Shown: positions 1,442 through 43,567 of the stretch, in pieces | Position numbering within the stretch: the stretch's first letter is position 1 | How the letters are laid out: every line of letters begins with the position of its first letter | DNA from: an uncultured Tateyamaria sp. | Lineage (GTDB): Bacteria; Pseudomonadota; Alphaproteobacteria; Rhodobacterales; Rhodobacteraceae | Direction: 5' to 3' | Length of the DNA stretch: 64,000 bases | Assembly (NCBI RefSeq): GCF_947497045.1 | Contig: NZ_CANMEU010000004.1 | Location: 248,001-312,000, forward strand | The notes under the pieces: model-generated | Databases searched by the model: none | Told to the model about the DNA's origin: nothing | What the model saw: the letters and a program-made list of their open reading frames with translations, nothing else | Translations under genes and position numbers: made by a program

Positions 1442-1458
1442 CCACGCATAAGGGCGCA

Positions 1459-2511: not shown

Positions 2512-2538
2512 GGGCGGTCCAATTCGGGAGGACTACAC

Positions 2539-3594: not shown

Positions 3595-3633
3595 GCACTT
3601 TCCCCCGGACGTCGGAGCAGATGGCAATCCGGC

Positions 3634-3669
3634 CCTCCGGGGGGAGTTTATTTGGCAAGATGAAGATCG
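3634..3669 (+). repeat. GC-rich intergenic repeat, copy A
   Basis: This is one of four related sequences in the window. A C/G-rich stretch that can pair with itself (CCTCCGGGGGGAG) is followed by the tail TTTATTTGGCAAGATGAAG. The same tail layout occurs at 60475-60512, and a diverged form (GCGGTATTT-GG-CAAAAGAAG) occurs at 46041-46094 and 49851-49904. It sits between the isomerase and dehydrogenase genes, where it would be transcribed. Confidence 0.6.
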
Positions 3670-3697
3670 GATCGCGGTGCGCCGCAGGGAGAGTGAG

Positions 3698-13676: not shown

Positions 13677-14165
13677 ATGAATACCATATCGGAACCATCT
13701 GACGACATGGGTACCAGTGATGAATCTACGACGTTCAGAGACTTGTTTTCTGCTTTGCCAGAACCGTTTGTCGACGTCGGCACCAGCGGCGACGACACGA
13801 TGTTCAGCACATTGTTTTCCATTTTGAAGGCAAAGGCAGGAGACGATACCATCATCACTGGTGGCGGCAACGCCAGGATACTTGCCGGACCAGGAGACGA
13901 CAGGCTCGAAATCACGGACGGAGGGGTTACAAAGTCAAATGGAGGTGAGGGGAGCGACACTTTTGTATTTGATGACAAAGGTGGCACCCATCTCGTGACA
14001 GACTTCTCGTTGGAAGAAATGGATGCGATCCTGCTGTTGGGGGATAGCGAATTTGAATGGGATCGGACGGACATCTTTGAAGTGACCGCCCAGTACGGTG
14101 ACACGACGCTGATTTTCGAAAATGTGACTGGTCGTGAGTTCACCTATGAGGAAGCGTTTCTCTAA
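13677..14165 (+). CDS. Small RTX-like calcium-binding protein
   Basis: A very acidic 162-residue protein without an N-terminal signal. Residues 45-95 contain degenerate RTX nonapeptides (GTSGDDTMF, KAGDDTIITGGG, AGPGDDRLEI). The C-terminal block GGEGSDTFVFDDKGG followed by VTDFSLEEMDAILL is the layout at the end of many RTX proteins exported by type I secretion. Secretion through an ABC/HlyD/TolC machine is therefore likely, but none of those genes is here. The N-terminal 60 residues contain two related copies (DMGTSDESTTFRDLFSALP and DVGTSGDDTMFSTLFSILK), suggesting an internal duplication. Function unknown; it is far shorter than most RTX proteins. Confidence 0.75.
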   Translation: MNTISEPSDDMGTSDESTTFRDLFSALPEPFVDVGTSGDDTMFSTLFSILKAKAGDDTIITGGGNARILAGPGDDRLEITDGGVTKSNGGEGSDTFVFDDKGGTHLVTDFSLEEMDAILLLGDSEFEWDRTDIFEVTAQYGDTTLIFENVTGREFTYEEAFL

Positions 14166-14726
14166 GGCGGCAAGCCATCTGGCCGCTCGACAAAGCGAAG
14201 CTGAGCCTATTTCGGGTCTGGTTTTTATCCGACGTTCGGGGGGGCCACAAATGGGCTTGGCGTCAGTTTGTCGGGCGGTGAGTGTGGTCGGTTGCGGATA
14301 CGCTTTTGGCAGCGAACCAATTCATGTCCGATCGGTTTCACCTTGGCATGAATGGATGATCATGTGCCCTTATGCACTGGAAAATAAGCCGCGGCCCGGT
14401 CGAGGGCTTATTTTCCGGTGGGTAAGGTCACCTACCATGACGCCGATAGCCACTTCGTTATCATATCGTCTGGCAACGCAGTATCGCTATCGGGTCCTGA
14501 TGTGTAAATTCCGGCTGCGTGTGCTCGACATCTGCTGATGGGTTTGCCGTGGACAGAGCATCGATACCATCCGTGATCGGCTACTGGAGTGGTCCGCCGA
14601 AAGGTGTCCACCAACTGGGATGGAATACCCCCTAAATTGGAGGATCAGCATGCATGCACCTTCTTGCTCTATGGCTGCTTCCAGCAACGCGATATCCAAA
14701 ACGGTCGGCCATCGTATATCCACCAC
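14166..14726. other. Intergenic region containing a long hairpin
   Basis: Apart from the 16-pair inverted repeat at 14375-14420, no gene is recognisable. Short frames on both strands here resemble no family I know. The region ends where similarity to carbamate kinase begins (14727). Confidence 0.4.
14375..14420. terminator. Long inverted repeat, possible bidirectional terminator
   Basis: GGAAAATAAGCC (14379-14390) is repeated in inverted form as GGCTTATTTTCC (14405-14416), a perfect 12-base match. The stem extends four more bases outward with one G-T pair. The loop is 14 bases and GC-rich. Read on the plus strand the right arm ends with TTATTTT, which could serve as the weak U tract of a terminator for the RTX-like gene 210 bases upstream; the symmetry makes it equally possible on the minus strand. 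Confidence 0.5.
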
Positions 14727-14903
14727 GCAACGCCGATGGAACTGGCATCAATGTCGTTCCCGCCAGGTTCAATGGGTCCAAAGGTTGAAGCCGCATGTGA
14801 CTTTGTGACGGCAACCGGTGGTTTCGCCGCGGTCGGTCGGCTGACCGATTGTAGCGCACTGGTGAACGGCAGCGCCGGCACGCGCATCAGCCGCGGGGCC
14901 TGA
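14727..14903 (+). pseudogene. Carbamate kinase 3' fragment
   Basis: The last 58 codons of an open frame read ATPMELASMSFPPGSMGPKV and then EAACDFVTATGGFAAVG...SALVNGSAGTRI, which is the C-terminal end of carbamate kinase (ArcC), a roughly 310-residue enzyme that makes ATP from carbamoyl phosphate. The rest of the gene, including the substrate- and ATP-binding parts, is absent: the sequence upstream in this frame is unrelated. This is a relic left by a deletion. Its neighbours, a DnaJ-type co-chaperone and a universal stress protein, are often clustered with arcC-type genes in low-oxygen stress loci, which supports the identification. Confidence 0.8.
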
Positions 14904-14909
14904 ACCTGC

Positions 14910-15209
14910 CTAGAGCATCTCGTATTGCGCCAGCCGACGCAGCACCGCATCCCGTTCTTCCAGCAAGTCCAGGACCAATGCGACACCAGCGGTATTGACC
15001 CCCAGGTCCCGGTTCAGGCGATGTGCCTTTTTGGCCCGCACGATACTGGTGCCGACAAAACGCCAGTCACTTCTGGTTTCACCGACAGGGTCGAGCACGC
15101 CGTGCTCGACCAATTCGATCACCCATGCCTCATCCGCATGGCAAAAGCGGCAAAGGTCCTGCAAGGTAAGCGTGTCCACAACTTCGCTGCGCAAGGTGGT
15201 CCTTTTCAT
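14910..15209 (-). CDS. cbpM: Chaperone modulatory protein CbpM
   Basis: A 99-residue MerR-like protein of the CbpM family, which binds and restrains the DnaJ homologue CbpA. Visible are the short winged-helix start TLTLQDLCRFCHADEAWVIE, the central DWRFVGTSIVRAKKAHRLNR and the coiled-coil end NTAGVALVLDLLEERDAVLR. Its AGGAGG ribosome site lies inside the last codons of the preceding cbpA frame, and only three bases separate the expected cbpA stop (15213) from its ATG. This indicates a coupled cbpA-cbpM pair. Confidence 0.85.
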   Translation of the reverse strand: MKRTTLRSEVVDTLTLQDLCRFCHADEAWVIELVEHGVLDPVGETRSDWRFVGTSIVRAKKAHRLNRDLGVNTAGVALVLDLLEERDAVLRRLAQYEML

Positions 15210-15212
15210 AAT

Positions 15213-16140
15213 CTAACCTCCTGGATTGGCGCGCGGATCAAAGGGCATCTCCCGTGCCATCTTTTCAAAAAACGCGCGGGCCTCGGCCCTTTCGACCCTT
15301 GGATTGACGATTTTCAAGGTCGCATAGATGTCCCCCCTTCGGCTGGCCGGGCAGCCCTTTGCCTCTGAGTCTTAATTTCTGACCCGCGCGGGAGTTCTGG
15401 GGGATGCGCAGATCAACCTTGCCTTCCGGTGTCGGCATCGTCACATGCCCACCAAGCGCGGCCTCCCACGGAGTAACCGGCAAATCGAGGTGCAGGTTCC
15501 TGCCATCAACCCGATAAACCGGGTGCGCGGCGAACGTGATCTCAAGAAAGAGATCGCCCGCCCCCCTCAGCCCCGGCATACCTTGACCCGCGAGCCGGAT
15601 GTGCTGACCTTCGACGACACCCTTGGGTACATTCACCGCAATGGTGCGTTCCTGTAGAGTGACACTCCCACCTGCTTCCACAACCGGTGATCTCAGGCTC
15701 AGTGTTCGCGCAACGCCAGTGTAGGACTCCTCGATTGTGATCTCAATCCGGCCATGGCTGTCGCCGCCACGGTCGGTTTTCATGTCACCTGGTGAACCAC
15801 CCCCATGCCGAAAGAGTGTCTCAAAAAAGTCGCTGAACGTCGCACCATCCTGCGGCCCGACATCAGAGAACGAAAAGCCAATGTCCCAATCGGGGGGCGG
15901 ACGGTACGCCCCCCGATTGCGCGGCGGCTCATGTCCAAGCTGATCATAAGCCGCGCGGCGCTCAGGATCCTTGAGCACCTCGTAGGCTTCATTCACGTCC
16001 TTGAACCGTGCCTCGGCTTCGGCACCGGGATTGATGTCCGGGTGATACTTGCGCACCGCCTTGTGGAAGGCTTTTTTGATCTCGCTCGCGTCCGCACTTC
16101 GCGCAACACCCAACGCCTTGTAGTAGTCCTTGAATTCCAT
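15213..16140 (-). pseudogene. cbpA: DnaJ-class co-chaperone CbpA, one-base frameshift near 3' end
   Basis: The protein has an N-terminal J domain (MEFKDYYKALGVARSADASE, HPD at about residue 33), a G/F-type linker and the two C-terminal substrate-binding domains of DnaJ/CbpA. After GKGLPGQPKG the frame shifts at a run of six C on the plus strand (15332-15337). With five bases the reading continues as GDIYATLKIVNPRVERAEAR and ends at 15213, exactly where cbpM needs it; as written the frame runs out with an unrelated tail at 15265. About 300 residues would be made. No zinc-finger domain is present, which separates CbpA from DnaJ. The lesion is a recent mutation or a sequence error, so the gene may be functional. 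Confidence 0.85.
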
Positions 16141-16201
16141 TTGCCTGCCGTTCGCATCCATTCATCTGGTCGGATCATGCCATCCGTCAGGTACTGCTGA
16201 T

Positions 16202-16215
16202 TTGATCTTTGTCAG
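16202..16215. promoter_or_regulatory. Degenerate FNR-like site between cbpA and the universal stress gene
   Basis: TTGAT-CTTT-GTCAG matches 8 of the 10 fixed positions of the FNR/FnrL consensus TTGAT-N4-ATCAA. It lies in the divergent 154-base region between cbpA and the universal stress gene, genes that are often oxygen-controlled in this group. The match is imperfect and may be chance. Confidence 0.25.
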
Positions 16216-16294
16216 TTGGCCCGCTGCACGGCGTGACATCATGCCTGCAATTGATCCGGCCCATCAGCCGGCAACCTTGCTGAAGGACGATGCA

Positions 16295-17140
16295 ATGCAG
16301 CACCGCACGATACTCTTTGTCCTGGATTCCAAAACGCCCGACGCCGAAGTCAGCGCTGCCGCAGACGCTGCCAGGCAGGATGAAACCAATCTGGTCTGTT
16401 TGCTGATTGGGCACGCCCCTGCGCTGCCGATATATGCCTACGGCGTACCCCCATACGGCGGAATGAATATCCCCGACAATTAGAATGAAACGGTTGCGGC
16501 AGCGCAGCAAGCCCAACAGGATCGCGTTGATGCCCTCGAAGATCTGCTCGCCAAAAGCAACACCTCAGGCGATGTCCATTCGGCCCTGTGTGTGACGACG
16601 GACGTCAAGCATCTTGTTTTCAGGCTGGCCCGTGTCACCGATGAGGCCTTTTTCGCAGCAAATCTGCGGGATTCTCCGGATGTGATGCGTGAAGCGGCTG
16701 CGGGTGTGCTGTTTCACTCTCCGATCGGTTTGCGCCTGAACGGATCAGTTGAACAGAAAGCGGATCGTGTGTTTGTTGCGTGGAACAGCAGCGAGGCGTC
16801 GTCCGCCGCGGTGCATGCGGCACTGCCATATCTCAAAGAGGCAAAGGAGGTCGTCATTGCGTGCTTTGATCCGGTGATGACTGCCGCACATGATGGTCAG
16901 GACCCCGGTGTGGATGTCGCCGAATGGCTTAACCATCATGGGTGCCAGGTCACTGTTTCTCAGTTCCCCAGTGGCGGCCACGAAATCGGCAGCGCCATTC
17001 AGGACCGGGCAACCGAGTTCGGTGCGGATTTGGTTGTCATGGGCGCCTATGGCCACGCCCGGATGATCCAGACCGTCCTTGGTGGCACCACCCGCACCAT
17101 GATTGAACAGACAAATCTCCCACTCTTGCTGGCGCATTGA
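16295..17140 (+). pseudogene. Universal stress protein (tandem UspA), interrupted by in-frame TAG
   Basis: Reading from the ATG at 16295 (GAAGGA ribosome site) gives a 281-codon frame with a single TAG at codon 63 (16481-16483). The sequence before it (RTILFVLDSKTPDAEVSAAA) and after it is continuous with a two-domain UspA protein. The C-terminal domain is intact and carries the nucleotide-binding pattern GAYGHARMIQTVLGGTTR. The frame does not shift, so the only visible lesion is the nonsense codon, flanked by IPDN and NETVAAAQQAQQD. Such proteins act in survival of energy or oxygen stress. Translation could restart downstream (ATG at 16592) to give the second domain alone. Confidence 0.85.
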
Positions 17141-17143
17141 GAG

Positions 17144-17533
17144 CATCGGATTGGCTTGCGGCAACAAGGCCGAATTGGTCGCGCTAGTGGAAAAGGAATA
17201 TGGCAAGTTGCAAGAGCCGATAGCGTCGTTGAACCAAGGGTCCTCAGAGTTCAGGCAGGCAGATGTAGTGATCAAGGATGTAATTGGTCATCGTACCCAT
17301 TGGGTCACCTGTTCCTTGGCTGGCATAAATACGACAAGGCCGGGAAAACGGTGTTCTTTCCAGCCGAAGGCTACAAGCAGAACGATTTGAAACGCTACAA
17401 CACCGATCTGCGAAAAACACAGCAGCAACTTGACTGGATTACGGTATCTGGTTGGCGCTGTGAGCCGGGGCGTTATCGCAACTTTGGCAACGCATACGGA
17501 ATGAGCTTTCGCTATCATCACCGCACAAGGTGA
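17144..17533 (+). pseudogene. ClbS/DfsB-family four-helix-bundle protein remnant
   Basis: One frame gives NKAELVALVEKEYGKLQEPI and VVIKDVIGHRTHW. The next frame continues with HLFLGWHKYDKAGKTVFFPA, EGYKQNDLKRYNTDLR and QQQLDW. Joined, these match the first two thirds of the ClbS/DfsB family (about 170 residues). The frame breaks within 17297-17306. After QLDW the sequence appears to skip the central part and ends in a tail (GRYRNFGNAYGMSF) reminiscent of the family's C terminus, so an internal deletion is likely. There is no start codon at the expected place. ClbS is a colibactin self-protection protein; in this context no function should be assumed. Confidence 0.7.
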
Positions 17534-17699
17534 GACGGGCTGCAATTATGCGCCAGACGACACTTGTGCGATCTGCCCAAACACTATAAGATGCAGATGA
17601 AATATATCAAATCGATCATATATTTCCTGCCGAGCAAGCGTCTTCGTGAGCGAGCCAACAAACGGTCGTTGGCTGCGACTCTCAAACTGATGAGAATCC

Positions 17700-18140
17700 A
17701 TGATGATAAAGCTCCTTTTGCCAGCCCTCGTGCTCGGTTTTTCCCCGCTCATAGTGTTTGCCGACACTAAGCTCATTGACGTTGATATTCTGGAATCGCG
17801 ACAGGTCCATGATGTCGCTAAAATAACCCCTCTCGCAATCGTTGACGGAAAGCCGATGGTCCTGCTGCTCGACCTTCCCGCCGGTGGGGTCGTTCCGCCA
17901 CACGCGACCGAGAGCGAGAGCGGTTTGCGCCTTTTGACCGTGATCAGTGGAAACCTTCACTGGGGAGATGGCACCGAAATGGACCAGGAGCAGGAGAGGG
18001 TCTTCCCGGCCGGGAGTGTCCTTGTGGTGTCCGAGCAAGATCCCCATTGGCTCGCCGCACGCGACGGTGCCCTCCAACTGCAACTCGTCACACTTGCGCG
18101 TGACACCCCGGTTCCAGGCATCCAAGAACAGCTGGAATGA
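17700..18140 (+). CDS. Periplasmic cupin-domain protein
   Basis: A 146-residue protein with a signal peptide (MIKLLLPALVLGFSPLIVFA) and a single cupin barrel. Motif-like stretches are PAGGVVPPHATESESGLRLL and VISGNLHWGDG, then FPAGSVLVVSEQDPHWLAARDG near the end. One His in each conserved half suggests metal binding. It lies 118 bases upstream of a methyltransferase gene on the same strand; no functional link is known. It is intact although it lies among disrupted genes. Confidence 0.75.
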   Translation: MMIKLLLPALVLGFSPLIVFADTKLIDVDILESRQVHDVAKITPLAIVDGKPMVLLLDLPAGGVVPPHATESESGLRLLTVISGNLHWGDGTEMDQEQERVFPAGSVLVVSEQDPHWLAARDGALQLQLVTLARDTPVPGIQEQLE

Positions 18141-18258
18141 TGTGACCTTCCCATCACACCGCGTGCAGCCTGTTTTGCCGGTCCGGATACTGACGAAGCG
18201 ACCGCTCGTGGATGCAAACTATGACCCTGCTCGCAACACTGAAAAGAGGAAAGCGGAT

Positions 18259-19077
18259 ATGACCGGACGGGGCTCCAAAAACGAAACAGTGCCAGGTGCG
18301 CAACTGGATGCGTCCAAGATGCCCGGCCATTGGTTGCTCGCGCGGGTTGGAAAACGGGTGCTCAGGCCGGGCGGCCTGAGCATGACGCATTCTCTCCTCG
18401 ACTCTCTGAAGATCAACGGGTCAGACAATGTTGTCGAGTTCGCACCCGGACTTGCGGCGACGGCACATCAGATTATTACGATGAAGCCATCAAGCTATAT
18501 CGGCATCGAGCGAGACAAGAATGCGGTCCAATTCACCGCCCGCCAGCTCGAGGGCACTGATATTGCAAAGGTGATCCAGGGGACCGCAAGCAACTGCAAC
18601 TTGGGGGATGGCGAAGCATCGGTCGTGGTTGGCGAAGCGATGTTGAGCATGCAAACGCAGTGGCAGAAAGAACTGATTGCGCACGAGGCTTTTCGATTAT
18701 TGGGACCGGGTGGGCGCTACGGCATCCATGAGCTGAGTATCACGCCCGATCAGATACCGATCGAGATAAAACAAGAGATCGAAGCCGCATTGTCTGACGC
18801 GATTAACGTGGGAGCGAGACCACTGGCGGAGTCTGACTGGCGCAAACTTCTTGAAGCCGCGGGGTTCGAAGTTGAGATCGTTCAACATGCCCCAATGCAC
18901 CTCTTGCAGCCTATGCGTCTAATTCAGGACGAAGGACTGCTCGGGGCGCTTCGGATCGTCAAGAACCTGCTGTTCGATCGTACCGCCAGACAACGTGTCT
19001 TACAGATGCACCGTATCTTCAAAAAATACGAAACGCATCTATCCGCAATTATGATTGTCGCGAAGAAACCCGGATGA
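18259..19077 (+). CDS. SAM-dependent class I methyltransferase
   Basis: A 272-residue methyltransferase. Motif I is visible as DNVVEFAPGLAATAHQII, followed by SYIGIERDKNA (acidic residue binding the ribose) and GEASVVVGEAMLSMQ (motif IV region). HEAFRLLGPGGRYGIHEL is the post-motif region typical of small-molecule methyltransferases. The start at 18259 was chosen for its AAGAGGAAAG ribosome site; the frame extends upstream through the cupin gene but has no family similarity there. The substrate is unknown. Confidence 0.85.
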   Translation: MTGRGSKNETVPGAQLDASKMPGHWLLARVGKRVLRPGGLSMTHSLLDSLKINGSDNVVEFAPGLAATAHQIITMKPSSYIGIERDKNAVQFTARQLEGTDIAKVIQGTASNCNLGDGEASVVVGEAMLSMQTQWQKELIAHEAFRLLGPGGRYGIHELSITPDQIPIEIKQEIEAALSDAINVGARPLAESDWRKLLEAAGFEVEIVQHAPMHLLQPMRLIQDEGLLGALRIVKNLLFDRTARQRVLQMHRIFKKYETHLSAIMIVAKKPG

Positions 19078-19125
19078 AAACATCTACGGATTAGCGAGTG
19101 CGTGGATCACAGCAGATATCTTTGG

Positions 19126-20133
19126 CTACATCTTTTCGGTTGAAGCGTATGATGGACCAGTACAATCAACGCATCGCGAGATTTGGTCGTCATTCAGACG
19201 GCAGGCTTTTTCAGACCTGCTTGCTGGTGTTTGATCCCGCGGTTTGATGGGGTAGATATAGACGTAATCGGTCATAACCCGCACATAATTGAGGGGAAAG
19301 ATGTATTTCGGCGTCATGAAGTGCTGACGATGCTGCCACTCTTCCTGTGGGGTATCCTTGAGGTCAACGATACTTGGAAGCGGCACGGAGTGACGCACAT
19401 GCGGACATTTGTCGATCCAGCTGGATTGATTGCCGAGATAGGCCGCGCATGCGGTATGCTCATGCGCGCCGCAGAAGTGGTAGGACTCTTGAAAGCCCTC
19501 AAGGGCAAGGTGCCAGTTCATTTTGCGGTCCAAAGACCACGCACGGAAGACCACGTGGTTTTCCAGACCCCGCGAAGCCAGTTGCTCCGCCATTGGTGCA
19601 ATCCAAGCATCAGGGTCCAGTTCACCCTCGCCGGCCGAGGGCCGCGCCCAGATCAGGCCAAACCGTTCGAACGCTGGCAGTTCGACCAGCCCCAAAGCTT
19701 TCTTATCGATGTCCCCAAAGCCGGAAGCATGAGGCAGTCCGCGTAGGTTGCCGTTCAGGTCATAGGTCCATTTGTGATAGGGGCACGCAAAGGTTTTCGC
19801 CTTACCGCATTCGCCACTGGTTAGCCGTGCACCACGGTGGCAGCAGACGTTCATAAAGGCTTTGACCACGCCGTCGTTGTTGCGCGTGATCAGGATCGGT
19901 ACGCCCAGTTCGCCGTTGGTGAAATAGGACGCCAGTTCGGGCAATTGCTCGGCATGCTCCATGATGATCGGGAACTTGCGGAACAGGGTTTCAACCTCGC
20001 GCGCAAGCACGTCCGGGTCGGTTTAGTTCGTGACTGGGTTGCGCATCAACGCAGGTTCCATGTCGGTTGTACGGTCTTCGGTGTGCTGCAAAATATCTTT
20101 GATGATCTGTGTTTCTTCGGTGCTCAGGCCCAT
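19126..20133 (-). pseudogene. Rieske-type ring-hydroxylating oxygenase alpha subunit, in-frame TAA and truncated
   Basis: The frame begins MGLSTEETQIIKDILQHTED at 20133 and meets a TAA at 20023-20025 after MRNPVTN. It then continues without shift (TDPDVLAREVETLFRKFP) into a clear Rieske domain: CCHRGARL and CPYHKWTYD supply the Cys-X-His and Cys-X2-His ligands. ALEGFQESYHFCGAHEH holds the mononuclear-iron His pair. The protein then stops about 50-100 residues early in an unrelated tail after VYIYPIKPRDQ, so the 3' end is also damaged. It directly follows the broken nitronate monooxygenase gene (four bases apart), so the two formed an operon before decay. Confidence 0.85.
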
Positions 20134-20137
20134 AATC

Positions 20138-21030
20138 TTACGCTCCGTCTTTTTGGCTTGGGACCGTGCCGAAACGACTCCCTTGGCTTTGATCTGTGAC
20201 GGCTTGATGGTATTCTGCGACCGGCGTCGCGACGACGTCTGCGACGGCTTCGGGCTTGGTGATACCGCCGACGCCCTGCCCGGCGCTCCAGACGTGTTTC
20301 CATGCCTTTGATCCGGCGCCCATGTCGCCGGAGAAGTCGAGCTTGGCCGCATCTTTCATGTCCTCGATTGAATACCCGCAGCCTCGACATTGGCGCGCAT
20401 CCAGTTTCCCAATGCACCGGTGATGGCGCGCGAGCGCGATCAGGCCTTCCATGGCACTGGTCCATACCATCTCGCGGTATTCCTGAGAGATCATGGTTTC
20501 GCGACCGGCCAGAAAACGGGTCCCCAGATACGCAAAATCCGCACCAAGGTTTTCGACCGCTCGGATGGCACGGCCAGATCCGATGCCGCCGCCGACAATC
20601 AGTGGCCCTTCGAAAAACCTGCGCACTTCGTCAATGAACGGCAACATGGCGTATTCGCCCGTATGCCCACCTGCGCCTGAACGCACCAACACCAAACCGT
20701 CCGCGCCTTTGTCCAGGGTCTTGCGCGCAAACTTTGGCGAAATCACATCTGCAAATACCAGCCCGCCCTATCGGTGAACCGGTTCTGTCACCCGATAAGG
20801 ACCGCCGAGTGCTGTAATCACCAGATCGGGCTGGAATTCCCCAACCAAGGCGATCTCTTCATCGAACCGGCCATAGCTGTTGTGCGTGATCATGTTCATT
20901 GCCCAAGGTGCGTCGCCGGCTTCCTGTCTTCCGATAGCTCCAGCATCGGTCGCCGCACGCGTCCGCCCCAAAAGCTCCTGCCGGTATTCTCCGAAAGCGG
21001 TCAGTTCGTCGCCGGATCCTGATGCCTTCA
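20138..21030 (-). pseudogene. Nitronate monooxygenase (2-nitropropane dioxygenase family), multiply disrupted
   Basis: Recognisable order: GDAPWAMNMITHNSYGR, PDLVITALGGPYRVTEPVH, a TAG at 20768-20770, then GGLVFADVISPKFARK, GADGLVLVRSGAGGHTG, GPLIVGGGIGSGRAI, ADFAYLGTRFLA and a C-terminal KAWKHVWSAGQGVGG. These are the FMN-binding barrel strands of nitronate monooxygenase. The TAG replaces the Tyr of the usual HxYGG. Between about 20375 and 20440 two mutually compensating indels hide the expected ITGALGNWMRANVEAAG in another frame. The N-terminal 60-70 residues of the enzyme are absent. No functional protein can be expected. Its partner was the downstream Rieske gene. Confidence 0.85.
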
Positions 21031-21141
21031 TCGCGTCACACGCGTACGCTTTGGCGTCATGTTTGCTGTATTTCATGGGGCGGACCCGTTTGTGTCGCTC
21101 TGGTTTCCAACCCGAAAGCCGTATCCTGCCGACTTTGCCAA

Positions 21142-21905
21142 TTTCAAACGCTGGAACTAGACATTGATAATTTGAATATCCAGGCCACCTCAATTTCACA
21201 TGGGCTAAGGCAAATCGAAGCGCGGCGCGACGAAAATAGGCTTGGTCGGCAACGATGCAATCGCAAGCCATGTGCGAAGCGCGCTGAAACACCGCCTCCA
21301 TAGCATCGAGTGTATTATTGTGCAGGCCACGCGGCCCTTGCCACAACCGCAATCGCCACGGTGCTGCGCGACCGGCCCAAGATCGCGATAAAGATCGTTG
21401 AGACCACCAATGAAATTCTGATGCCAGCATTGCTGTCGGGTGAGACTGATCTTGTTGTGGATCGGCGGCCTGCACACCGTCATGGAGACAAGTTGCGACA
21501 GGAGAGGCTGCTCGAGGATCGTGTCAAAGCTGTTGTTGGCCACGATCCTCCCTTGGCGCGGATCAAGTCGCTGCCGTTTGATCGGATCAAACCCCCTGGA
21601 TGGATTTTGCCTAAGGTGGAAACGACCCTTCGCCGTCAGATTAACCAGCTCTTGATCAAACAACATCAGTACGCACCCCAATTCGCCATCGAACCCGTCT
21701 CGCATCTGGCCGACAGGGCGATGCTGCAATCCAACGACTATCGGACTGATGCCTGCCGAGGTGGTGCGCCAGGACATCGAGAGCGGGATATCTCACCACG
21801 CTTGATTGGAATGTTCCTTTCGGTCAAAGCCCCATCGGTCTGACCTATCGCAATGACAACAGCCTGTCGCCCATATTTTCAAAGACGCGCTGCACATCCC
21901 GGCAA
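21142..21905 (+). pseudogene. LysR family regulator, decayed
   Basis: Traces of the helix-turn-helix (LNIQATSISHGLRQIEA) are followed by a TAG at 21301-21303. Then comes a long substrate-binding-domain section in the same frame: ATVLRDRPKIAIKIVETTNE, ILMPALLSGETDLVVDR, WILPKVETTLRRQINQLL. After LQSND the reading moves to a second frame (TIGLMPAEVVRQDIESGI) and then a third (LDWNVPFGQSPIGLTYRNDN). This adds at least two frameshifts and probably a deletion in the linker. The gene is divergent from the broken nitronate monooxygenase/Rieske pair and was probably their regulator. Confidence 0.75.
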
Positions 21906-22019
21906 AACAGCGATGAGCTTTGATATTCAGGAAAGTGATATCAGTATCCAAGCAATTCACTTGAAACGCCCCCCAATCCTGAATGATCTGGGCGAAAGAA
22001 ACGATGGAGCGCGAGATCG

Positions 22020-23450
22020 ATGTATCCTGAGCTGAAACTGTTCATTGCAGGCAAATGGCGCACAACCCGCCGCGATATGGCCGTGGTGAACCCCGCGACA
22101 GAGCAAGAAATCGGGCGTCTGCCTTGCGCCGATATCAGCGACCTTGATGATGCACTTGCCGCTGCCCAAGAGGGTTTCCGCATCTGGGCCGCAACCTCCC
22201 CCCGCGCGCGTGGTGATACGATCCTGCGGGCTGCGGCCCTGATGCGTGAACGTCAGGAAGAGATTGCGCAGTCCATCACATTGGAGCACGGCAAGCCACT
22301 TGCGCAGGCCCGTCTGGAAGTGATCCGGGGTGCCGAATTCTTTGAATGGGACGCGGGCGAGGCCATGCGCACCTATGGCCGGGTTATTCCTGCCGCACGG
22401 GGGCACAAGTTCTCGGTCCACCATCAACCCATCGGCGTAGTCGCGGCTTTCTCTCCATGGAATTTCCCGATGAGCCAGCCCGCGCGCAAGATCGCCGGTG
22501 CCCTGGCCTCTGGCTGCTCGATCATACTCAAGGCTGCCGAGGAGACCCCCGCAGGTGCCATCCATATCGCGCGCGCCTTTCAGGATGCAGGCCTGCCCGC
22601 AGGTGTCTTGAACCTCGTTTTTGGCGATCCTGCCGAAATCTCCGGCCATTTGATACCGCAGGATCCTGTGCGCCTTGTCGCCTTCACCGGCTCGACGCCT
22701 GTTGGTCGGCATCTGACAACGCTGGCTTCCGAGAACATGACTTCTGTGCTTATGGAACTCGGGGGGCATGCGCCCGTCATCGTCTGCGAAGACACCAACG
22801 TGCAGGTTGCCGCAGTCTCGGGTGCGATCCGCAAGATGCGCAATGCGGGTCAGGTTTGCACATCACCGACACGGTTCTTCGTGCACGACACGATCTTTGA
22901 TGGGTTCGTTGAGAAGTTTATCGCCCGCGCCACGCAGACCGTTGTGGGTAATGGCATGGAGGCAGGCATTGAGATGGGGCCTCTCGCAAATGACCGCCGG
23001 GTCCCTGTCCTGACGGCACTGGTCGAGGATGCACGCACCAAGGGTGCGACTGTTGCGACAGGCGGCGCACGTCACGGCGACACCGGCTATTTCTTTCAGC
23101 CCACCGTGTTAGTCAACGTCCCCGATGACGCGCGCATCATGCAGGAAGAACCGTTTGGACCGATTGCCGTTATTAACCCTGTGAGCTCTCTGGATGACGC
23201 AATCGCGCGGGCCAATTCAGTGCCCTACGGGTTGGCGGGCTATGCTTTCACCAATCGTGCAGACTACATCGACCGCCTGATTGACGAGGTAGAGGTCGGC
23301 AATCTGTCGATCAACACACTCGAAGCATCCATGCCCGAAACCCCTTTTGGCGGCGTGAAGTCCAGCGGTTATGGCCGCGAAGGTGGTTCGGAAGGTTTGG
23401 ACAATTACATGACAGTCAAGAACGTGTGGCATTCGTCGCAGATCGTCTGA
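22020..23450 (+). CDS. NAD(P)-dependent aldehyde dehydrogenase (succinate-semialdehyde dehydrogenase-like)
   Basis: A 476-residue aldehyde dehydrogenase. The family landmarks are present: FSPWNFPMSQPARKIAGALA (Asn of the oxyanion hole), FTGSTPVGR (cofactor binding), MELGGHAPVIV (general-base Glu), NAGQVCTSPTRFFV (catalytic Cys) and EEPFGPIAV. It most resembles succinate- or glutarate-semialdehyde dehydrogenases. It lies just 35 bases upstream of kynureninase, so it could act on a semialdehyde in tryptophan breakdown; this is inference from position only. It is intact although it directly follows decayed genes. Confidence 0.88.
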   Translation: MYPELKLFIAGKWRTTRRDMAVVNPATEQEIGRLPCADISDLDDALAAAQEGFRIWAATSPRARGDTILRAAALMRERQEEIAQSITLEHGKPLAQARLEVIRGAEFFEWDAGEAMRTYGRVIPAARGHKFSVHHQPIGVVAAFSPWNFPMSQPARKIAGALASGCSIILKAAEETPAGAIHIARAFQDAGLPAGVLNLVFGDPAEISGHLIPQDPVRLVAFTGSTPVGRHLTTLASENMTSVLMELGGHAPVIVCEDTNVQVAAVSGAIRKMRNAGQVCTSPTRFFVHDTIFDGFVEKFIARATQTVVGNGMEAGIEMGPLANDRRVPVLTALVEDARTKGATVATGGARHGDTGYFFQPTVLVNVPDDARIMQEEPFGPIAVINPVSSLDDAIARANSVPYGLAGYAFTNRADYIDRLIDEVEVGNLSINTLEASMPETPFGGVKSSGYGREGGSEGLDNYMTVKNVWHSSQIV

Positions 23451-23485
23451 CCTCCACAAAAACACCACATATCAGGAAGAGCACA

Positions 23486-24742
23486 TTGAACGCCCAGACA
23501 GGACAAATCACCCGCGCTGATACGATCAAAATGGATGGCGATGATCCCATCGCCCACCTGCGCGACCGCTTCGAATTACCCGCCAATGACATCTATCTGG
23601 ATGGCAATTCCCTTGGTGCTCTTCCACGTGGCGTGATGGAGCGGCTGGAAGTCGCGGTCAAAAAGGAATGGGGACAAGGGTTAATCCGCAGCTGGAACGA
23701 CACCGATTGGTACCCTGCCCCACAGCGCGCAGGTACTGCGATTGCACGTATTCTGGGGGCCGATGATGATGAGGTGATCGTTTGCGACTCCATCTCCGTC
23801 AACCTGTTCAAGCTGCTGGTGGGCGCGCTGCGCATGCGCCCCGACCGCAAGGTCATCGTGTCCGAGATCGGGAACTTCCCCACGGATGTCTATATCAACA
23901 CCGAAGTGGCCGAGATGATGGGCTGCGAGTTGCGTTGCGTCATGCCCGAAGATGTTGAGCAGGCCATTGACGATGCAGGGCAGGACCTCGCGCTCGTGCA
24001 GCTGACACATGTGCATTACAAATCGGGTCGCATCTATGACATGACTGGCATCACCAAGCGCGCCCAAGACCTTGGCGGGCTGGTGATCTGGGATCTGGCC
24101 CACTCTGCGGGATGCCTGCCTGTGCAGTTGAACGCCTGTAACGCTGATTTTGCCGTCGGCTGTGGCTACAAATACCTCAATGGCGGTCCAGGTGCGCCTG
24201 CGTTTGTGTTCGTAGCCCAACGTCACTTTGAAGCCATGAACCAACCCCTGCGCGGCTGGCACGGACACGCCGAACCGTTCGCCTTTACCCAGAACTACAA
24301 ACCACATCCCACCATCGACCAGATGTTGACGGGCACCGCCTCCCAACTTGCCACATTGGCGCTGGAAACTGCGATGGAAGTGTTCGAGGACGTCGATATG
24401 AACGTGCTGCGCCAGAAAAATATGGCGCTCGGGGATTTGTTCATCGCACTGGTCGAGCAAGAGCTTGGCGGCATGGGCTTCGCACTGGCCAGCCCCAAAG
24501 ACGCAGAGCAGCGCGGCTCGCAGGTGTCGCTGACCCATGAGAACGGGTATGCAATCATGCAGGCCGTCATCGCGCGTGGCGTGGTCGGTGACTTCCGTGC
24601 GCCAGACATCCTGCGCTTTGGGTTTGCGGCACCTTATGTCCGTTATGTCGACATCTGGGATTCGGTGTCGCACCTGCGCGAGGTCATGGAAACAGGCGAA
24701 TGGGACCGCGCCGAGTTCAAAGAGCGCCGCGCCGTCACTTAA
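23486..24742 (+). CDS. kynU: Kynureninase
   Basis: A 418-residue PLP enzyme that hydrolyses kynurenine to anthranilate and alanine. Visible are the start DIYLDGNSLGALPRGVMERL, the phosphate-binding DSISVNLFKLL, the Asp-containing LVIWDLAHSAGCLPVQLN and the PLP-binding Lys in CGYKYLNGGPGAPAF. The most likely start is a TTG at 23486 with AGGAAGAG seven bases upstream; an in-frame GTG at 23426 lies inside the dehydrogenase gene, and the next ATG (23531) would cut the conserved N terminus only slightly. No other kynurenine-pathway gene (kynA, kynB) is in the window. Confidence 0.93.
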   Translation: MNAQTGQITRADTIKMDGDDPIAHLRDRFELPANDIYLDGNSLGALPRGVMERLEVAVKKEWGQGLIRSWNDTDWYPAPQRAGTAIARILGADDDEVIVCDSISVNLFKLLVGALRMRPDRKVIVSEIGNFPTDVYINTEVAEMMGCELRCVMPEDVEQAIDDAGQDLALVQLTHVHYKSGRIYDMTGITKRAQDLGGLVIWDLAHSAGCLPVQLNACNADFAVGCGYKYLNGGPGAPAFVFVAQRHFEAMNQPLRGWHGHAEPFAFTQNYKPHPTIDQMLTGTASQLATLALETAMEVFEDVDMNVLRQKNMALGDLFIALVEQELGGMGFALASPKDAEQRGSQVSLTHENGYAIMQAVIARGVVGDFRAPDILRFGFAAPYVRYVDIWDSVSHLREVMETGEWDRAEFKERRAVT

Positions 24743-24789
24743 CACCAACAGGCGCTCCCCACGCGATTATGGGCGCGGGGGTACCTCGA

Positions 24790-25966
24790 TCATTCTGGCT
24801 TCGGCTCTTGTTCGGCCTTCCAGGCGGCGAGTTCGTCTTCGTCCCAAAATCCAAGATACACACCCTCAACCGCATCATCATGGCACATGTGGGTGTCGAT
24901 CTTTTCGTCTGACAGCGTGACGCGGTTATGCTGTCTGCGGGACCAGTCGAACATCGCAGATGAGAGGCGCGTAATTTCATTTGCGTATTTTTCGTTTGCG
25001 CCAAGATCGACAAACTCGTCGGGGTCAGTTTCCAGATCAAACAGCATCGGGCGATGCCCTTCGACCCAAATCATCTTCCACCGCCCGTCAAACACCATCG
25101 TCAACAGGCAGGATTTGGCATTGGGGCTGAGGTGCCTGAGATGCGCGCGTGTGGAATAGTCATATTCAGAAATAGCGTAGGCGCGGGGTGGGATCGTTTT
25201 GCCATGCAAGGACGGCAAAAGCGAACGCCCCTCCAGAATATGATCGGGCACTTTGCCACCAAAATACTCCACAAACGTTGGCGCAAGATCAATCGCCTCA
25301 GTGAGGTCTGTGATGACCTGCCCCCGCGTCGCCTCCGCATCTTTGCTGGGATCCACAATGATCATCGGGATACGGGCGGATGGATCGTAAAAGAGGTCCT
25401 TTTTCGCCCATCCACTGATCGCCAAGGTAGTCTCCGTGATCCGAAGTAAACACGATCAATGTGTCATGCGCCTGCCCGCTGTCTTTCAAATAGGTCATCA
25501 GCCGTCCGATCTGGTCATCAATCTGGGTGATTAGCCCCATGTAAGCAGGGATCACAGCCTTGCGCACCTCGTCACGGCTGAAGGCCTGCGAATACCGATA
25601 GCCATAGTACGCCTCCATCAAGGGATGCGGGTCCTCCAGTTCAACCTCAGATCGCTTCACCGACAGCACGTCCTCCTCACTGTACATATCGTGGTAGGGG
25701 GCTGGCACTATGTAGGGCCAGTGCGGCTTGATATAGCTCAGATGCAGACACCAGCTGTCTTCTTTGGCCTGCTCCATGAACTCGATTGCGCGGGTTGTGG
25801 TGTAGGGGGTCTCGGAATCTTCTTCCGCCACCGCAGCCGGTTCACTGCTGTGTTTTAACAGCCAACCTGAGAGGATATCGCCATCGTCACTTCGCCCCGA
25901 ATTCGCGGCCGAGTGCCAGGGATTGTGCCCCTCATGTCCTTGGGCCTTCAGATGATCCTTGTATTT
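24790..25966 (-). pseudogene. Sulfatase/phosphonate monoester hydrolase-like gene, 5'-truncated and frameshifted
   Basis: The downstream part of an arylsulfatase-like protein is clear: KDHLKAQGHEGHNPWHS, LSYIKPHWPYIVPAPYH, IVFTSDHGDYLGDQWMGEK and, in the next frame, DLFYDPSARIPMIIVDPS onward to the end. The frame breaks at a run of five T on the plus strand (25400-25404); four would restore WMGEK-DLFYD. About 150-170 N-terminal residues, including the Cys/Ser-X-Pro-X-Arg catalytic motif, are missing: the sequence runs straight into the CoA-transferase gene at about 25966. It cannot be active. Confidence 0.85.
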
Positions 25967-27693
25967 GGACGGTTCACGATGACATCAACCCGCTTTCCAT
26001 GCGCTTCGCAGGTTCGGGCGACAGTATCGCGCACAAGGTGGATTTCTTCTTGTGTCCTAATGCGCATCTTCTCGAAATTCAGGAACAGCTGCCCGACTTT
26101 ACTGTCGATTGCAACGCGATCAGGCAAGTCGAGGTGCAGAAGATCGGTGCGCAGACCCATCTCCTCCGCGCGGAAGATGCGCGGATCCATTGGGCGGATC
26201 TCGTCCATGATCGGGTCCACATCCATCAGGCGTAGAATATCGCGTTCCAGATCAATGCCGGGCGCGACTTCAATCAGTTTCAATCCGTCTGGCGTCAGTT
26301 CAAACACGCACCGCTCTGTCACATACAGGACCGGCTGACCCAAACGCGCCGCGCGCGCTCCGGAGAAGGAAATTTGCTCGACATGGTTCAAGAATTTCCG
26401 GGCCTTGCCCTCTTGGCGGACCTCAACACCGTCCTCACGCACCTCTACCTCTAGCCCTTGCGTGGTAAACGTACCCGCAAAGACCACGGCGCGGGCATTC
26501 TGGCTGATATTGATGAATCCGCCGGCCCCGGCCAGACGGGACCCAAAGCGCGACACATTCACATTGCCTGCCGCATCCGCCTGCGCAAGCCCAAGGCACG
26601 TCATGTCGAGGCCACCGCCATCGTAAAAATCAAACTGGTTGTTCTGCGGGATCACCGCATCGGTGTTGACCGCCGCGCCAAAATCAAGGCCAGAGGCAGG
26701 CTGGCCTCCGATTACGCCGGGTTCTGCGGTGAGCGTCAGATGCTCCAGCAATCCCTCTTCAGCCGCGACGGATGCAACCCCTTCCGGCATCCCGATTCCC
26801 AGATTGACGACGCCATTGACCGGCAGCTCAAACGCGCACCGTCGCGCAATCACCTTGCGCGCATCCAGCGGCATGACGGGCATCTCGCCCAGAGGTGGTT
26901 TGATCCGGTTGGTGAAGGCCTGACTGAAAACGGTCCTGTAAGTCTGCACGTGGTTCTCCGGTTTCGCGACTATGATGGCGTCCACAAGAATGCCCGGAAT
27001 GTGCACATCCCGACCAGGCAGCGACCCGGCACGCGCCACGCGTTCCACCTGCACGATCACCACACCGCCCGCGTTATGCACGGCCATGGCCTGGGCCAGG
27101 TTGTCGATGGTCAGCGCCTCGCGCTCCATTGTCACATTACCTGCCTCATCCGCTGTCGTGCCGCGCAGCAAGGCGACGGTCAGTTTTTGCGACGGGTAGA
27201 AGAGAATCTCTTCGCCGCCCAATTCCATCAGTTCAACCTAGGGTCCGGTTGAGATGTCGTTGACGGCCCCGCCACCATTTCGCGGATCAACAAAGGTCTC
27301 CAACCCCATTTTCGACAGCAGCCCCGGCTTGCCCGCCGCGATATCGCGATAAAGTTGGCTGATCACGCCCTGCGGCAGGTTCCAACCCTCGATCTTGCCC
27401 TCCGTTGCCAGTTTTGCGACCTTGGGGATCAGACCCCAATGACCGCCGACAACCCGTTTCAACAGGCCTTCATGGCCAAGCCGGTTCAGGCCACGTTCCT
27501 TGCCGTCGCCCTGCCCTGCTGCAAAAACCAAGGACAGGTCACGCGGATGCCCGGTCTGGACAAATCGATCTTCAACGGCAGCCAGCAGTTCGTCCTGGAC
27601 ACCGATACCCACAAAACCAGACGTCGTGATCGTGTCACCGTCCTTGATCAGGGCGGCGGCCTCAGATGGGGAAACGACCTTGCTTGCCTTCAT
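25948..27693 (-). pseudogene. Acyl-CoA:acetate/3-ketoacid CoA-transferase (YdiF type), in-frame TAG and 3' truncation
   Basis: A family I CoA-transferase with both subunits fused. The N-terminal half begins [20 protein letters not shown] and [15 protein letters not shown]. After VNDISTGP a TAG (27238-27240) interrupts the frame, which resumes without shift as VELMELGGEEILFYPSQKL. The second half contains NLGIGMPEGVA, the likely catalytic Glu in LTAEPGVIGGQPASG, and GLDMTCLGLAQADAAGNVN. The usual last 50 or so residues after GKRVDVIVN are missing, replaced by the sulfatase remnant. The ATG overlaps the stop of the upstream MarR gene (ATGA), so they form an operon. Family members move CoA between short-chain acids. 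Confidence 0.85.
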
Positions 27694-28178
27694 GTATCTG
27701 CCCTCGATTTTGGACTTTGCTGCACCACAGGCTCCGCTTGCCGATCCAAGGCATCTTGCAGACGCAAGAGCAGATGATGCAGGTCCTGCCTTTCCTTGAG
27801 GGTAAAGGCCTCAAGCAGCGCAGCTTCAAAAGACAGTGCGTCCGGGACAATCGCGTTAAAGACTTTTAGCCCGGCATCGGTAATCTCGATCTCAACAAGG
27901 CGATGATCCGCATCGCAGGTCGACTTTGCCAACAGCCCCGCTTGTTCAAGCTTGGCAACGGCTCGGCTGACGCTTGGCTTTTCAAGATAAACGCTGTCGT
28001 GGATTTCACGAACAGACATTTTTTCGCGGCGCGCGACGTGCACGAGGACGCGCCATTCAGGCGTCGAAAAACCGTATTCTTCGCTATAGACTTTCGAAAG
28101 CATTTTGGTGACGCGCGACGACAGCACCGACAGTTTGTAGGGCAGAAATTCGGACAGATTGAAACCGCTTGATGTCAT
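27690..28178 (-). CDS. MarR family regulator (candidate repressor of hmgA and the CoA-transferase)
   Basis: A 162-residue winged-helix regulator of the MarR family. The DNA-binding part reads [20 protein letters not shown], then [20 protein letters not shown] and the wing [16 protein letters not shown]. It is transcribed divergently from hmgA, and two copies of a 16-base motif flank the hmgA promoter, so it is the obvious candidate regulator, similar in role to HmgR-type and LinR-type repressors. It overlaps the CoA-transferase gene by ATGA. It is intact although its operon partner is broken. Confidence 0.88.
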
Positions 28179-28199
28179 GTGAATCTAGTGCCTTTGATT

Positions 28200-28262
28200 T
28201 CGTTGCACATGAAATGATCTTGACTCACTTTTCCACAAAATGTTAATCGTTGCAAGTGAAAC
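28200..28262 (+). promoter_or_regulatory. hmgA promoter with two repeated operator motifs
   Basis: A sigma70-type promoter is visible: -35 TTGACT (28220-28225), a 17-base spacer and -10 TTAATC (28243-28248). Two similar 16-base motifs bracket it: TCGTTGCACATGAAAT (28200-28215), upstream of the -35, and TCGTTGCAAGTGAAAC (28247-28262), over the -10 end and start region; 13 of 16 bases agree. The first copy also contains the inverted pair ATTTC/GAAAT. The layout suggests repression by the divergent MarR protein, relieved by an aromatic catabolite such as homogentisate. Confidence 0.6.
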
Positions 28263-28347
28263 GAATTTTCAGCCGCCCGTTAAAACGGGTTTGAACGCAC
28301 CACACGTTGCCGCAGTGCCGATCCGTTGAAACGCAAGGAGACATGCC

Positions 28348-29697
28348 ATGAAAGACGCAGTTATCAGCCCTTTGGTTCAGGCCGACGGCACCACCACCAC
28401 ACCGGGGTACATGCCGGGGTTCGGCAATGATTTCGAGACCGAAGCCCTGCCCGATGCCCTTCCCCAAGGCATGAACAGCCCGCAAAAGTGCAACTATGGC
28501 CTTTACGGAGAGCAGCTTTCCGGCACCGCTTTCACCGATGTGCGCCCTGAACGCACGTGGTGCTACCGTATCCGCCCGTCGGTGAAACACAGCCATCGCT
28601 ATGAAAAAACTGACCTGCCATATTGGCGTTCTGCGCCCGACATTCACCCCGATGTGACCTCTTTGGGCCAGTACCGTTGGGATCCAATCCCGCATACGGA
28701 CACGCCGCTGACATGGCTGACAGGCATGCGCACAATGACCACCGCAGGGGACGTAAACACGCAGGTGGGTATGGCGTCTCACGTCTATCTGGTGACGGAA
28801 TCCATGCAGGACGCCTATTTCTTTTCCGCCGACAGCGAGATGCTGGTGGTTCCACAGGAAGGCCGGCTGCGCTTTGCGACCGAGCTTGGGATCATCGACC
28901 TTGAACCCAAGGAAATCGCCATCCTGCCGCGCGGCCTTGTGTACCGCGTCGAGGTTCTCGAAGGGCCAGCGCGCGGCTTTGTCTGCGAAAATTACGGTCA
29001 GAAATTCGAACTGCCGGGCCGCGGGCCCATCGGGGCCAACTGCATGGCCAACCCACGTGATTTCAAAGCGCCTGTTGCGGCGTTCGAGGACCGCGAAGTG
29101 CCTTCCACCGTGACGGTCAAATGGTGCGGCCAGTTCCATGAAACCAAGATCGGTCAAAGCCCGCTCGACGTTGTGGCATGGCACGGCAACTATGCGCCCT
29201 ACAAATACGATCTGCGCAACTACTGCCCTGTCGGCGCGATCCTGTTCGACCATCCAGACCCATCGATCTTCACCGTTCTGACTGCGCCATCCGGCCAGCC
29301 GGGCACTGCAAACATCGACTTCGTGCTGTTCCGCGAACGCTGGATGGTGATGGAAGATACGTTCCGCCCGCCGTGGTACCACAAGAACATTATGTCAGAG
29401 ATGATGGGCAACATTTACGGTCAATATGATGCCAAGCCGCAGGGCTTTGTCCCCGGTGGCGTCAGTCTGCACAACATGATGCTGCCCCACGGGCCTGATC
29501 GTGAAGCATTCGAGAAAGCATCCAATGCCAACCTCGGCCCGGACAAACTGGACAACACCATGTCCTTCATGTTCGAGACACGTTTTCCGCAGCAACTGAC
29601 CCCGTTCGCAGGCAAGGAAGCCCCGTTGCAGGACGACTACATCGATTGCTGGGCGGATATGGAGAAGAAGTTTGACGGCACGCCGGGCAAGAAGTGA
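28348..29697 (+). CDS. hmgA: Homogentisate 1,2-dioxygenase
   Basis: A 449-residue iron enzyme that opens the ring of homogentisate, the central step of tyrosine and phenylalanine breakdown. Typical stretches are [15 protein letters not shown] and [20 protein letters not shown] at the N terminus, [15 protein letters not shown] (iron-binding His/Glu region) and [15 protein letters not shown]. The length fits the family. A strong AAGGAGA ribosome site precedes the ATG. It heads the operon hmgA-maiA-fahA, and its stop overlaps the maiA start (TGATG). Confidence 0.97.
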
Positions 29698-30338
29698 TGG
29701 GCACGCTGACGCTTTATTCCTATTGGCGCTCCACCACATCCTACCGGGTGCGGGTGGCGCTCAACCTCAAGGGACTGTCTTACGAGACAGTCCCAGTGGA
29801 TCTCGTCGCGGGCGATCAGCGCGCGGCGGAATATGTGGCCAAGAACCCGAGCAAGGGTGTGCCGACGCTGGTGCTGGAGGACGGCACCGTGCTGACGCAA
29901 TCGCTGGCGATCCTCGACTATCTGGATCACGTCGCCCCCGATCCCGCGCTTTTGCCGGAAGACCCACTGTTACGGGCGCGGGTTCTGGCCGCAGCGCAGG
30001 CCATCGCGCTGGACATCCATCCGGTGAACAACCTCAAGGTCGTGAACCGCCTGAAGTCCGAACACGGATTGAGCGCCGATCAAGGCATCGCCTGGATGCG
30101 CAACTGGATGACCGAAGGGTTTCACGCCTATCAGGCGCTGCTGCCGGATGGCCCTGCCTTCAGCTTCGCGGAGACACCGCTGCTGTGCGACATCTGCCTC
30201 GTCGCGCAGCTTTACAATGCACATCGCTGGGGCGTTGACATGACACCCTTTGCCCGCCTGCTCAAAATAGAAGAGCAAGCCCTCAAGCTGCCGGCCTTTG
30301 ACGTCGCGCGCCCCGAAAAACAGCCAGATTCGAACTGA
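29697..30338 (+). CDS. maiA: Maleylacetoacetate isomerase
   Basis: A 213-residue zeta-class glutathione transferase that isomerises maleylacetoacetate to fumarylacetoacetate with glutathione. The N-terminal thioredoxin-like domain shows SYWRSTTSYRVRVALNLKGL, in which the Ser-rich segment binds glutathione, and KGVPTLVLEDGTVLTQSLAI. The C-terminal helical domain has DIHPVNNLKVVN. The ATG at 29697 overlaps the hmgA stop; a GTG directly before it is in frame but less likely. Second gene of the homogentisate operon. Confidence 0.95.
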   Translation: MGTLTLYSYWRSTTSYRVRVALNLKGLSYETVPVDLVAGDQRAAEYVAKNPSKGVPTLVLEDGTVLTQSLAILDYLDHVAPDPALLPEDPLLRARVLAAAQAIALDIHPVNNLKVVNRLKSEHGLSADQGIAWMRNWMTEGFHAYQALLPDGPAFSFAETPLLCDICLVAQLYNAHRWGVDMTPFARLLKIEEQALKLPAFDVARPEKQPDSN

Positions 30339-30348
30339 AGGACATCCA

Positions 30349-41925: not shown

Positions 41926-42107
41926 AGCGTCCTCACTGATCAGGTTGGCCTGCTTCTAGCAGGCGTGCCAATAGGTGCAAGACGGTGACAGGTCAGCAAA
42001 AATCTGGAAGAGACGCTTGGAACCAAACGATAAAAACCATTATCACTGCCGGGTACACGCATCCTTCCATGCGATTCTTTCATCTCATTACATGCAGGAG
42101 CAACCGC

Positions 42108-42596: not shown

Positions 42597-42655
42597 GGGC
42601 GCTTGCCTTTTCCTGCCCTCTGGGGCAGGTCAGGGTGACCAACTCGGAGAGTGTG

Positions 42656-43450: not shown

Positions 43451-43567
43451 GCAGATTGTTCCGCGCAAAAAACCGCTCAAACCCCACACGCATAGCGAGA
43501 GATTGCAAAATTCGTTGCTTTTGGGGTCTGGCTTGACACAAAGTCGGTCAACTGATGTGGACCCCCG

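Follow-up and report, generated by a model that had tools for sequence, protein, structure and literature searches.

The 64,000-nucleotide stretch of DNA analysed here (the window) belongs to the genome assembly GCF_947497045.1 of an uncultured Tateyamaria sp. (4.24 Mb, 54 contigs, 99.9% complete). It covers positions 248001-312000 of the forward strand of contig NZ_CANMEU010000004.1 (C4). Of the 16 genes between 14.7 and 27.7 kb of the window, 11 are disrupted, the lesions being nonsense codons, frameshifts and large deletions. Two genes of this block, encoding an aldehyde dehydrogenase (ALDH) and kynureninase (kynU), are intact, and their codons show that they are under purifying selection. 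The block is probably part of a mosaic, horizontally acquired segment (~6.1-40.8 kb) that decays gene by gene, with redundancy at other loci of the genome partly deciding which genes survive.

The lesions were identified by frameshift-aware alignment and by comparing the genes with open reading frames from relatives. The two constrained genes are adjacent: the ALDH gene spans 22020-23450 (+) and kynU 23426-24742 (+). The kynU product matches TIGR01814 above the cut-off; none of the 25 NCBIfam models listed for the ALDH product is above its cut-off. Three broken genes precede them. The DHDPS-family gene (20914-21076, -) is reduced to a 3' piece (20914-21035) and its first codons (21042-21076, with the start codon at 21076), joined through an internal deletion of ~750 bp relative to the locus L032 (5657-5787 and from 6538 on). 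This DNA comparison, which gives a 5' piece and a 3' piece, rules out reading the remnant as residues 185-326. The aspartate dehydrogenase-like gene nadX survives as a 5' remnant (21216-21350, +), and deletions of ~90 and ~930 bp took the rest. The lysR gene (21347-21913, +) has lost its first ~113-120 codons, which encode the DNA-binding part, and carries frameshifts near 21739, 21785 and 21873.

Selection was assessed by counting window-specific changes against two relatives by codon position, where a ratio of first plus second to third positions of 2 is expected without constraint. The arcC, DHDPS-family and nadX remnants are short and were set aside. The ratios are 0.31-0.40 for ALDH and 0.25 for kynU, and neutrality is rejected at 1e-17 (for the ratio of 0.31) and 4e-14. 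The ratios of DUF1706 (1.97) and lysR (1.82-1.93) cannot be told apart from the neutral value (p 1.0 and 0.72), and they differ from those of an intact relative (p 0.003 and 0.002). The values for cbpA are intermediate (0.93-1.04); of the two reference pairs, one shows a difference from the relative (p 0.003) and the other does not (p 0.07). Relaxation is not significant in these tests for the genes of the Rieske oxygenase (0.81-0.93), the universal stress protein (usp, 0.59-1.00), the nitronate monooxygenase-like protein (NMO, 0.41-0.54), the sulfatase (0.40-0.43) and the CoA-transferase. The CoA-transferase ratio is 0.36-0.42 with close references and 0.85 with distant ones; the distant references (L044/L048 for CoA-transferase, L087/L088 for Rieske and NMO) were replaced by closer ones. 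The intact cbpM has ratios of 0.40-0.67. Because one usp comparison (ratio 1.00) rejects neutrality only at 0.007, the usp lesion could be older than others of its class. The staggered ratios indicate that the lesions were not all made at one time. An earlier note on this DNA had proposed a recent loss of selection for the whole block. Neither "recent" nor "whole" is supported: lysR and DUF1706 have neutral patterns, cbpA an intermediate one, other broken genes show no significant relaxation, and ALDH and kynU remain constrained.

A second copy of the operon lies on contig C5. Its DctM, DctP, 3-hydroxyanthranilate dioxygenase (3-HAO; PF06052), DHDPS-family, aspartate dehydrogenase-like and lysR genes, assigned by Pfam, are all open, as is a DctQ gene named by position and homology. 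DHDPS, nadX, lysR, DctP and DctM are constrained as well as intact. The C5 ALDH gene is broken: its 5' end is gone, ~145 codons are deleted internally, the frame shifts twice, and a TGA stands right at the margin of the homologous sequence. All seven further loci that carry this module (L032, L033, L041, L042, L045, L127 and L128; three of them in the genus) have a full-length ALDH, a count that leaves aside L034/L126, which is cut by a contig end; the L033 locus shows no nadX. In the LysR tree, the block copy groups with L032 and L033 (support 99/99) and the C5 copy with the genomes G009 and G016 (96/98). In the ALDH tree, the block copy groups with L032, L033 and G180 (96/95). No remnants of 3-HAO or TRAP genes were found in the window. 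The state of the genes is reciprocal in all five pairs: DHDPS, nadX and lysR are intact on C5, and ALDH and kynU are intact in the block.

The counterpart of the block kynU is located on contig C3. A search of the genome for kynU finds three places, namely the block, a partial match of 75 residues on C3 and a 27% match on C2, so that the block holds the only complete copy found. The C3 locus consists of an open kynA followed by a kynU stub with a frameshift and, by reading of the sequences, a deletion of ~295 codons. The C3 kynA is constrained (12 changes at codon positions 1 and 2, 31 at position 3). kynU is full length at this locus in all 15 same-genus genomes examined (of 19), and adjoins kynA in 14 of the 15. 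In one genus relative, the stretch L145 (G011:C227:4001-15000) has a full-length kynU and no kynA match within it. The block kynU is 88-92% identical over the best segment to L032-L034, compared with 44-49% to the native kynU of the 15 genus relatives. Its relatives are a Sulfitobacter-labelled metagenome-assembled genome (L032), Litoreibacter arenae (L033), Pseudooctadecabacter jejudonensis (L034) and a distant Euryhalocaulis (L035); the tree output assigns Roseobacteraceae to two of these four. Xenologous gene displacement is a general concept, and a complete foreign kynU together with a destroyed native one fits it. For both kynU and ALDH the surviving copy appears foreign and the native copy is broken in this genome, making them candidates for such displacement. 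The displacement would be partial and two-way, with foreign ALDH and kynU and native lysR, nadX and DHDPS being kept, which sets it apart from the general concept.

The divergent region between the DHDPS-family gene and nadX (21077-21215) is retained. Alignment of 21101-21260 with L032, the C5 copy, L041, L042, L127 and L128 shows a partly conserved motif. We hypothesize that this region, at 21.1-21.2 kb, drives ALDH and kynU, with the C5 LysR acting in trans. The DHDPS-family, nadX and lysR genes of an arriving 3-hydroxyanthranilate-type operon would have decayed because the native C5 copies stayed intact. Conversely, destruction of the native ALDH on C5 and of the native kynU, which follows kynA on C3, may be the reason why the block has kept its own ALDH and kynU. 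The block would decay stepwise through point lesions and deletions and not in one event. One catabolic gene set would now be spread over three loci, and the native and arriving operon copies appear pruned against each other. The presence of kynA, kynU and 3-HAO points to a single pathway from tryptophan and kynurenine to 3-hydroxyanthranilate. It is possible, as a more tentative combination of these ideas, that this pathway runs on two complementing half-dead operon copies, native and foreign, together with kynA at a third locus. In that case the regulator of the native half would control the genes of the foreign half via the surviving promoter, and the decaying block would be held largely by the two displacing genes.

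Several observations weigh against mutual pruning of an acquired and a native operon. For five pairs, with three genes broken in the block and two elsewhere, complementarity would arise by chance in 1 of 10 cases under those totals. Intact hmgA and fahA genes are present in the window (within 28348-31599) and again on C1 (G000:C1, L174), where the second copies are open and full length (85% and 67% identity); maiA has no match in that C1 stretch. Redundancy has thus not forced loss of these two genes, and together with the 1 in 10 chance this makes the five-pair pattern in itself only suggestive. NMO, Rieske and CoA-transferase are broken although searches at the thresholds used gave no close second copy, so for these three disuse is the most economical explanation. 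The protein-level search for second copies set aside arcC, cbpA, usp and DUF1706. The C5 ALDH is not significantly relaxed (ratio 0.81 versus 0.55, p 0.2), and may thus have been lost recently; its position in the ALDH tree is not resolved. The test of the short C3 kynU stub is inconsistent over five reference choices: three agree with neutrality, two disagree. A sigma-70-like promoter was not found within 21250-24900, a stretch that lies outside the divergent region. An uninterrupted empty site was not seen in the closest relative found, G017, since its two flanks lie on separate contigs (C12 and C2). The complementarity is supported by the selection signature on the survivors and by the intact native copies in relatives.

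The same observations could follow from a plain failed horizontal transfer, in which the acquired genes decay neutrally, the intact ones are unhit so far or useful for other reasons, and the complementarity is coincidental. The 1 in 10 chance and the doubly intact hmgA and fahA favour this explanation, and enrichment of pseudogenes in transferred DNA is a known pattern (PMC522871). However, the low codon-position ratios of ALDH and kynU show that they are not merely unhit, no complete kynU was found outside the block, and the ALDH gene on C5 is broken. We consider failed transfer unlikely, and prefer decay of the acquired block in step with redundancy.

Broken genes are indeed concentrated in the block. 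Coding coverage along C4 has its minimum at 260-270 kb (0.65; 45 ten-kb bins). The control screens flagged stops in the best match or coverage below 85%, and would therefore overlook lesions close to the ends of genes, of which the cbpA frameshift is an example. Each used one relative and covers mainly shared backbone genes; for the block genes, in contrast, the best of many relatives served as reference. With G017, 103 of 108 reference genes were found in C4, and none has a convincing lesion. The 12 genes flagged comprise five without a match, five with stops only in approximately the first 45 residues and two with coverage below 85%. Both low-coverage genes and one of the five early-stop genes were read as alignments and reflect over-extended reference starts; the remaining four were judged by stop position alone. 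With G006, 45 of 254 places were flagged, of which 43 were realigned and two skipped for size. Four candidates were left after a coding filter; these and three other alignments were read, and none was convincing. The earlier note had counted at least nine broken genes in the block, and this concentration is upheld by the 11 found here and by the lack of convincing lesions in the 103 G017-syntenic genes or the 254 G006 matches.

Sequencing or assembly errors are a very unlikely source of the stops and frameshifts. The assembly is a draft of 54 contigs, and any individual one-base lesion, for example in cbpA or usp, could be an error as far as the sequence alone goes. Deletions of up to ~1 kb, the neutral codon patterns of lysR and DUF1706, and 103 neighbouring genes without a convincing lesion argue against it. 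Stop-codon reassignment, or programmed readthrough or frameshifting that keeps the genes functional, can hardly be credited: three of the five aligned nonsense codons are TAG, but these stand at tryptophan, tyrosine and glutamine positions of relatives, TAA and TGA also occur, deletions and several frameshifts in one gene are found, and neighbouring genes have no convincing internal stops. Genome-wide recoding had been considered after 42 of 250 places were flagged in an initial control and in-frame stops, most often TGA opposite arginine, appeared in 31 of 253 matches. It was dropped because realignment with the coding filter and the seven alignments read showed shadow frames or over-extended reference frames. 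A replication terminus at the block, where gene decay is commoner, is equally far-fetched and was rejected: the cumulative GC skew rises and then falls within the window alone, but over 452 kb of C4 the skew is negative to either side of the segment and positive in a single 10-kb bin where the segment starts, and no close dif-like site was found.

At the left end of the block lies a remnant of arcC (carbamate kinase; 14727-14891, +), comprising the last ~55-60 of 298 codons. The adjacent cbpM (14910-15209, -) is intact, with 90% identity to L040 and no relaxation seen. The DnaJ-like gene cbpA (15216-16140, -) is partly relaxed and has one +1 frameshift near 15336, close to its 3' end. The usp gene (16292-17140, +) contains one in-frame TAG at 16481; a further TGA and a shift near 16281-16290 are upstream of the likely start. 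The DUF1706 pseudogene (17103-17620, +) has frameshifts at ~17307, 17447 and 17574 and a TGA at 17502, which lies in a poorly conserved part. It is followed by a short open reading frame (17700-18140, +) labelled cupin in the earlier note. This frame has no Pfam or NCBIfam match and no relative in the genomes compared, so that the gene is called unbroken on its open frame alone. The methyltransferase gene (18226-19077, +) is intact, 76% identical to G002 (L010/L047), and its pairwise changes are mostly at third positions.

The Rieske oxygenase gene (19126-20133, -) has a TAA at 20025, and from 19240 on, after residue ~298-301 of ~386, its homology is lost. The NMO gene (20138-20953, -) has lost its 5' part and contains a TAG at 20770 and +1 and -1 frameshifts at 20434 and 20370. 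As the two shifts are ~20 codons apart, the frame reopens with altered residues between them. Downstream of kynU, the sulfatase gene (24790-25975, -) lacks its first ~146 codons and has a frameshift near 25402. The CoA-transferase gene (25972-27693, -) has a TAG at 27240, and its 3' end is deleted so that it is fused to the sulfatase gene; the joint falls on short shared bases (GAAC). Beyond the block, marR (-) and hmgA-maiA-fahA (+) are open and full length (27690-31599).

All 11 broken genes (arcC, cbpA, usp, DUF1706, Rieske, NMO, DHDPS, nadX, lysR, sulfatase and CoA-transferase) have intact counterparts in relatives. The earlier note's list of intact genes (cbpM, cupin, methyltransferase, ALDH and kynU) is borne out. 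Its count of five simple nonsense codons agrees with the five that align to a residue of an intact relative. Their types do not: three are TAG (16481, 20770 and 27240), one TAA (20025) and one TGA (17502), instead of four TAG and one TAA. Large deletions, of tens to ~1000 bp, are as important as the point lesions and are visible only with relatives.

The accessory segment spans 6071-40831 of the window, and both of its edges are where collinearity with G017 ends. G017 is the closest relative found (kynA 92%; flanks 83-92% DNA identity), and C4 214878-254070 and 288832-360894 are collinear with it. Against this collinear background, the segment is thus additional. The lowest G+C among full bins is that of C4 250-270 kb (0.57 and 0.558). 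The end of collinearity, the low G+C and the many pseudogenes agree with the claim of the earlier note that this is an accessory block with lost selection; its interpretation as a whole holds in this part.

The block is not a single functional unit, as it joins modules that occur separately in other genomes, including arc/cbp/usp, NMO-Rieske, the 3-hydroxyanthranilate-type operon and CoA-transferase/homogentisate. The search for the modules took in 20 genus genomes including this one, with an E-value limit of 1e-100, and 394 genomes of the family, with a limit of 1e-150 and no more than two candidate places scored in each family genome. Besides the window itself, no place among the matches listed bridges more than one block module. 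The genes arcC-cbpM-cbpA-usp-DUF1706 are all together in G013, with subsets in G007, G010, G011, G090 and G300. The NMO-Rieske module is present in G131, G076, G222, G404 and G305, and lysR-ALDH-kynU-sulfatase in L032 and L033. CoA-transferase-marR-hmgA-maiA-fahA has an identical order in G141, where the CoA-transferase gene is intact. The hut genes at 32-40 kb of the window are found as one block in G007. The block was not found at the site in G017, and its modules are common to other genera, which marks it as foreign.

A mobile element was considered as the cause and rejected, as there are no tRNA genes within the window, and no transposase or integrase among the subset of window proteins scanned with Pfam or NCBIfam. 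Repeats within the block are limited to few short pairs. An inverted repeat (14364-14431; arms of 27 nt, loop of 14 nt) is located upstream of the arcC remnant, in the otherwise unexplained stretch 14165-14712. Short repeats of ~30-50 bp are found at 3620-3681, with many copies in this genome and in genus relatives, and at 46043-46094 and 49857-49902, with many copies in G017. In several genus relatives (e.g. G010, G015 and G003), the flanks 1-4813 and 40831-46000 are in opposite relative orientation, ~24-34 kb apart, which suggests that the accessory segment is located at an inversion end.

Degraded Hodgkinia copies reportedly supply one gene set jointly, and we propose the same pattern for the block and the C5 and C3 loci. 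Unlike in Hodgkinia, it would operate here inside one 4.2 Mb genome, between native and foreign operon copies. Among the matches listed, term searches of one open-licence library gave no publication describing complementary loss involving native and foreign operons of a bacterium, and none about this operon in roseobacters. Complementary gene loss itself is known in the Hodgkinia of cicadas (PMC10287537). Pseudogenes derived from horizontal transfer are also well known (PMC522871; Liu et al. 2004). The block resembles them in being atypical accessory DNA rich in disabled genes, but differs in that purifying selection on some of its genes is strong and these appear to have replaced native copies. 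In Salmonella, pseudogenes are rapidly removed (Kuo and Ochman 2010, PMC2916853). Deletions remove disabled genes in both cases; the youngest Salmonella pseudogenes go quickly, whereas in the block remnants of several ages persist together.

The block offers a readable case in which a foreign and a native operon may be pruned against each other within one genome, with lesions of different ages standing side by side. It predicts that the two remaining "foreign" genes, ALDH and kynU, are needed for a native pathway. If each gene were annotated on its own, the loss as well as the rescue would go unnoticed.

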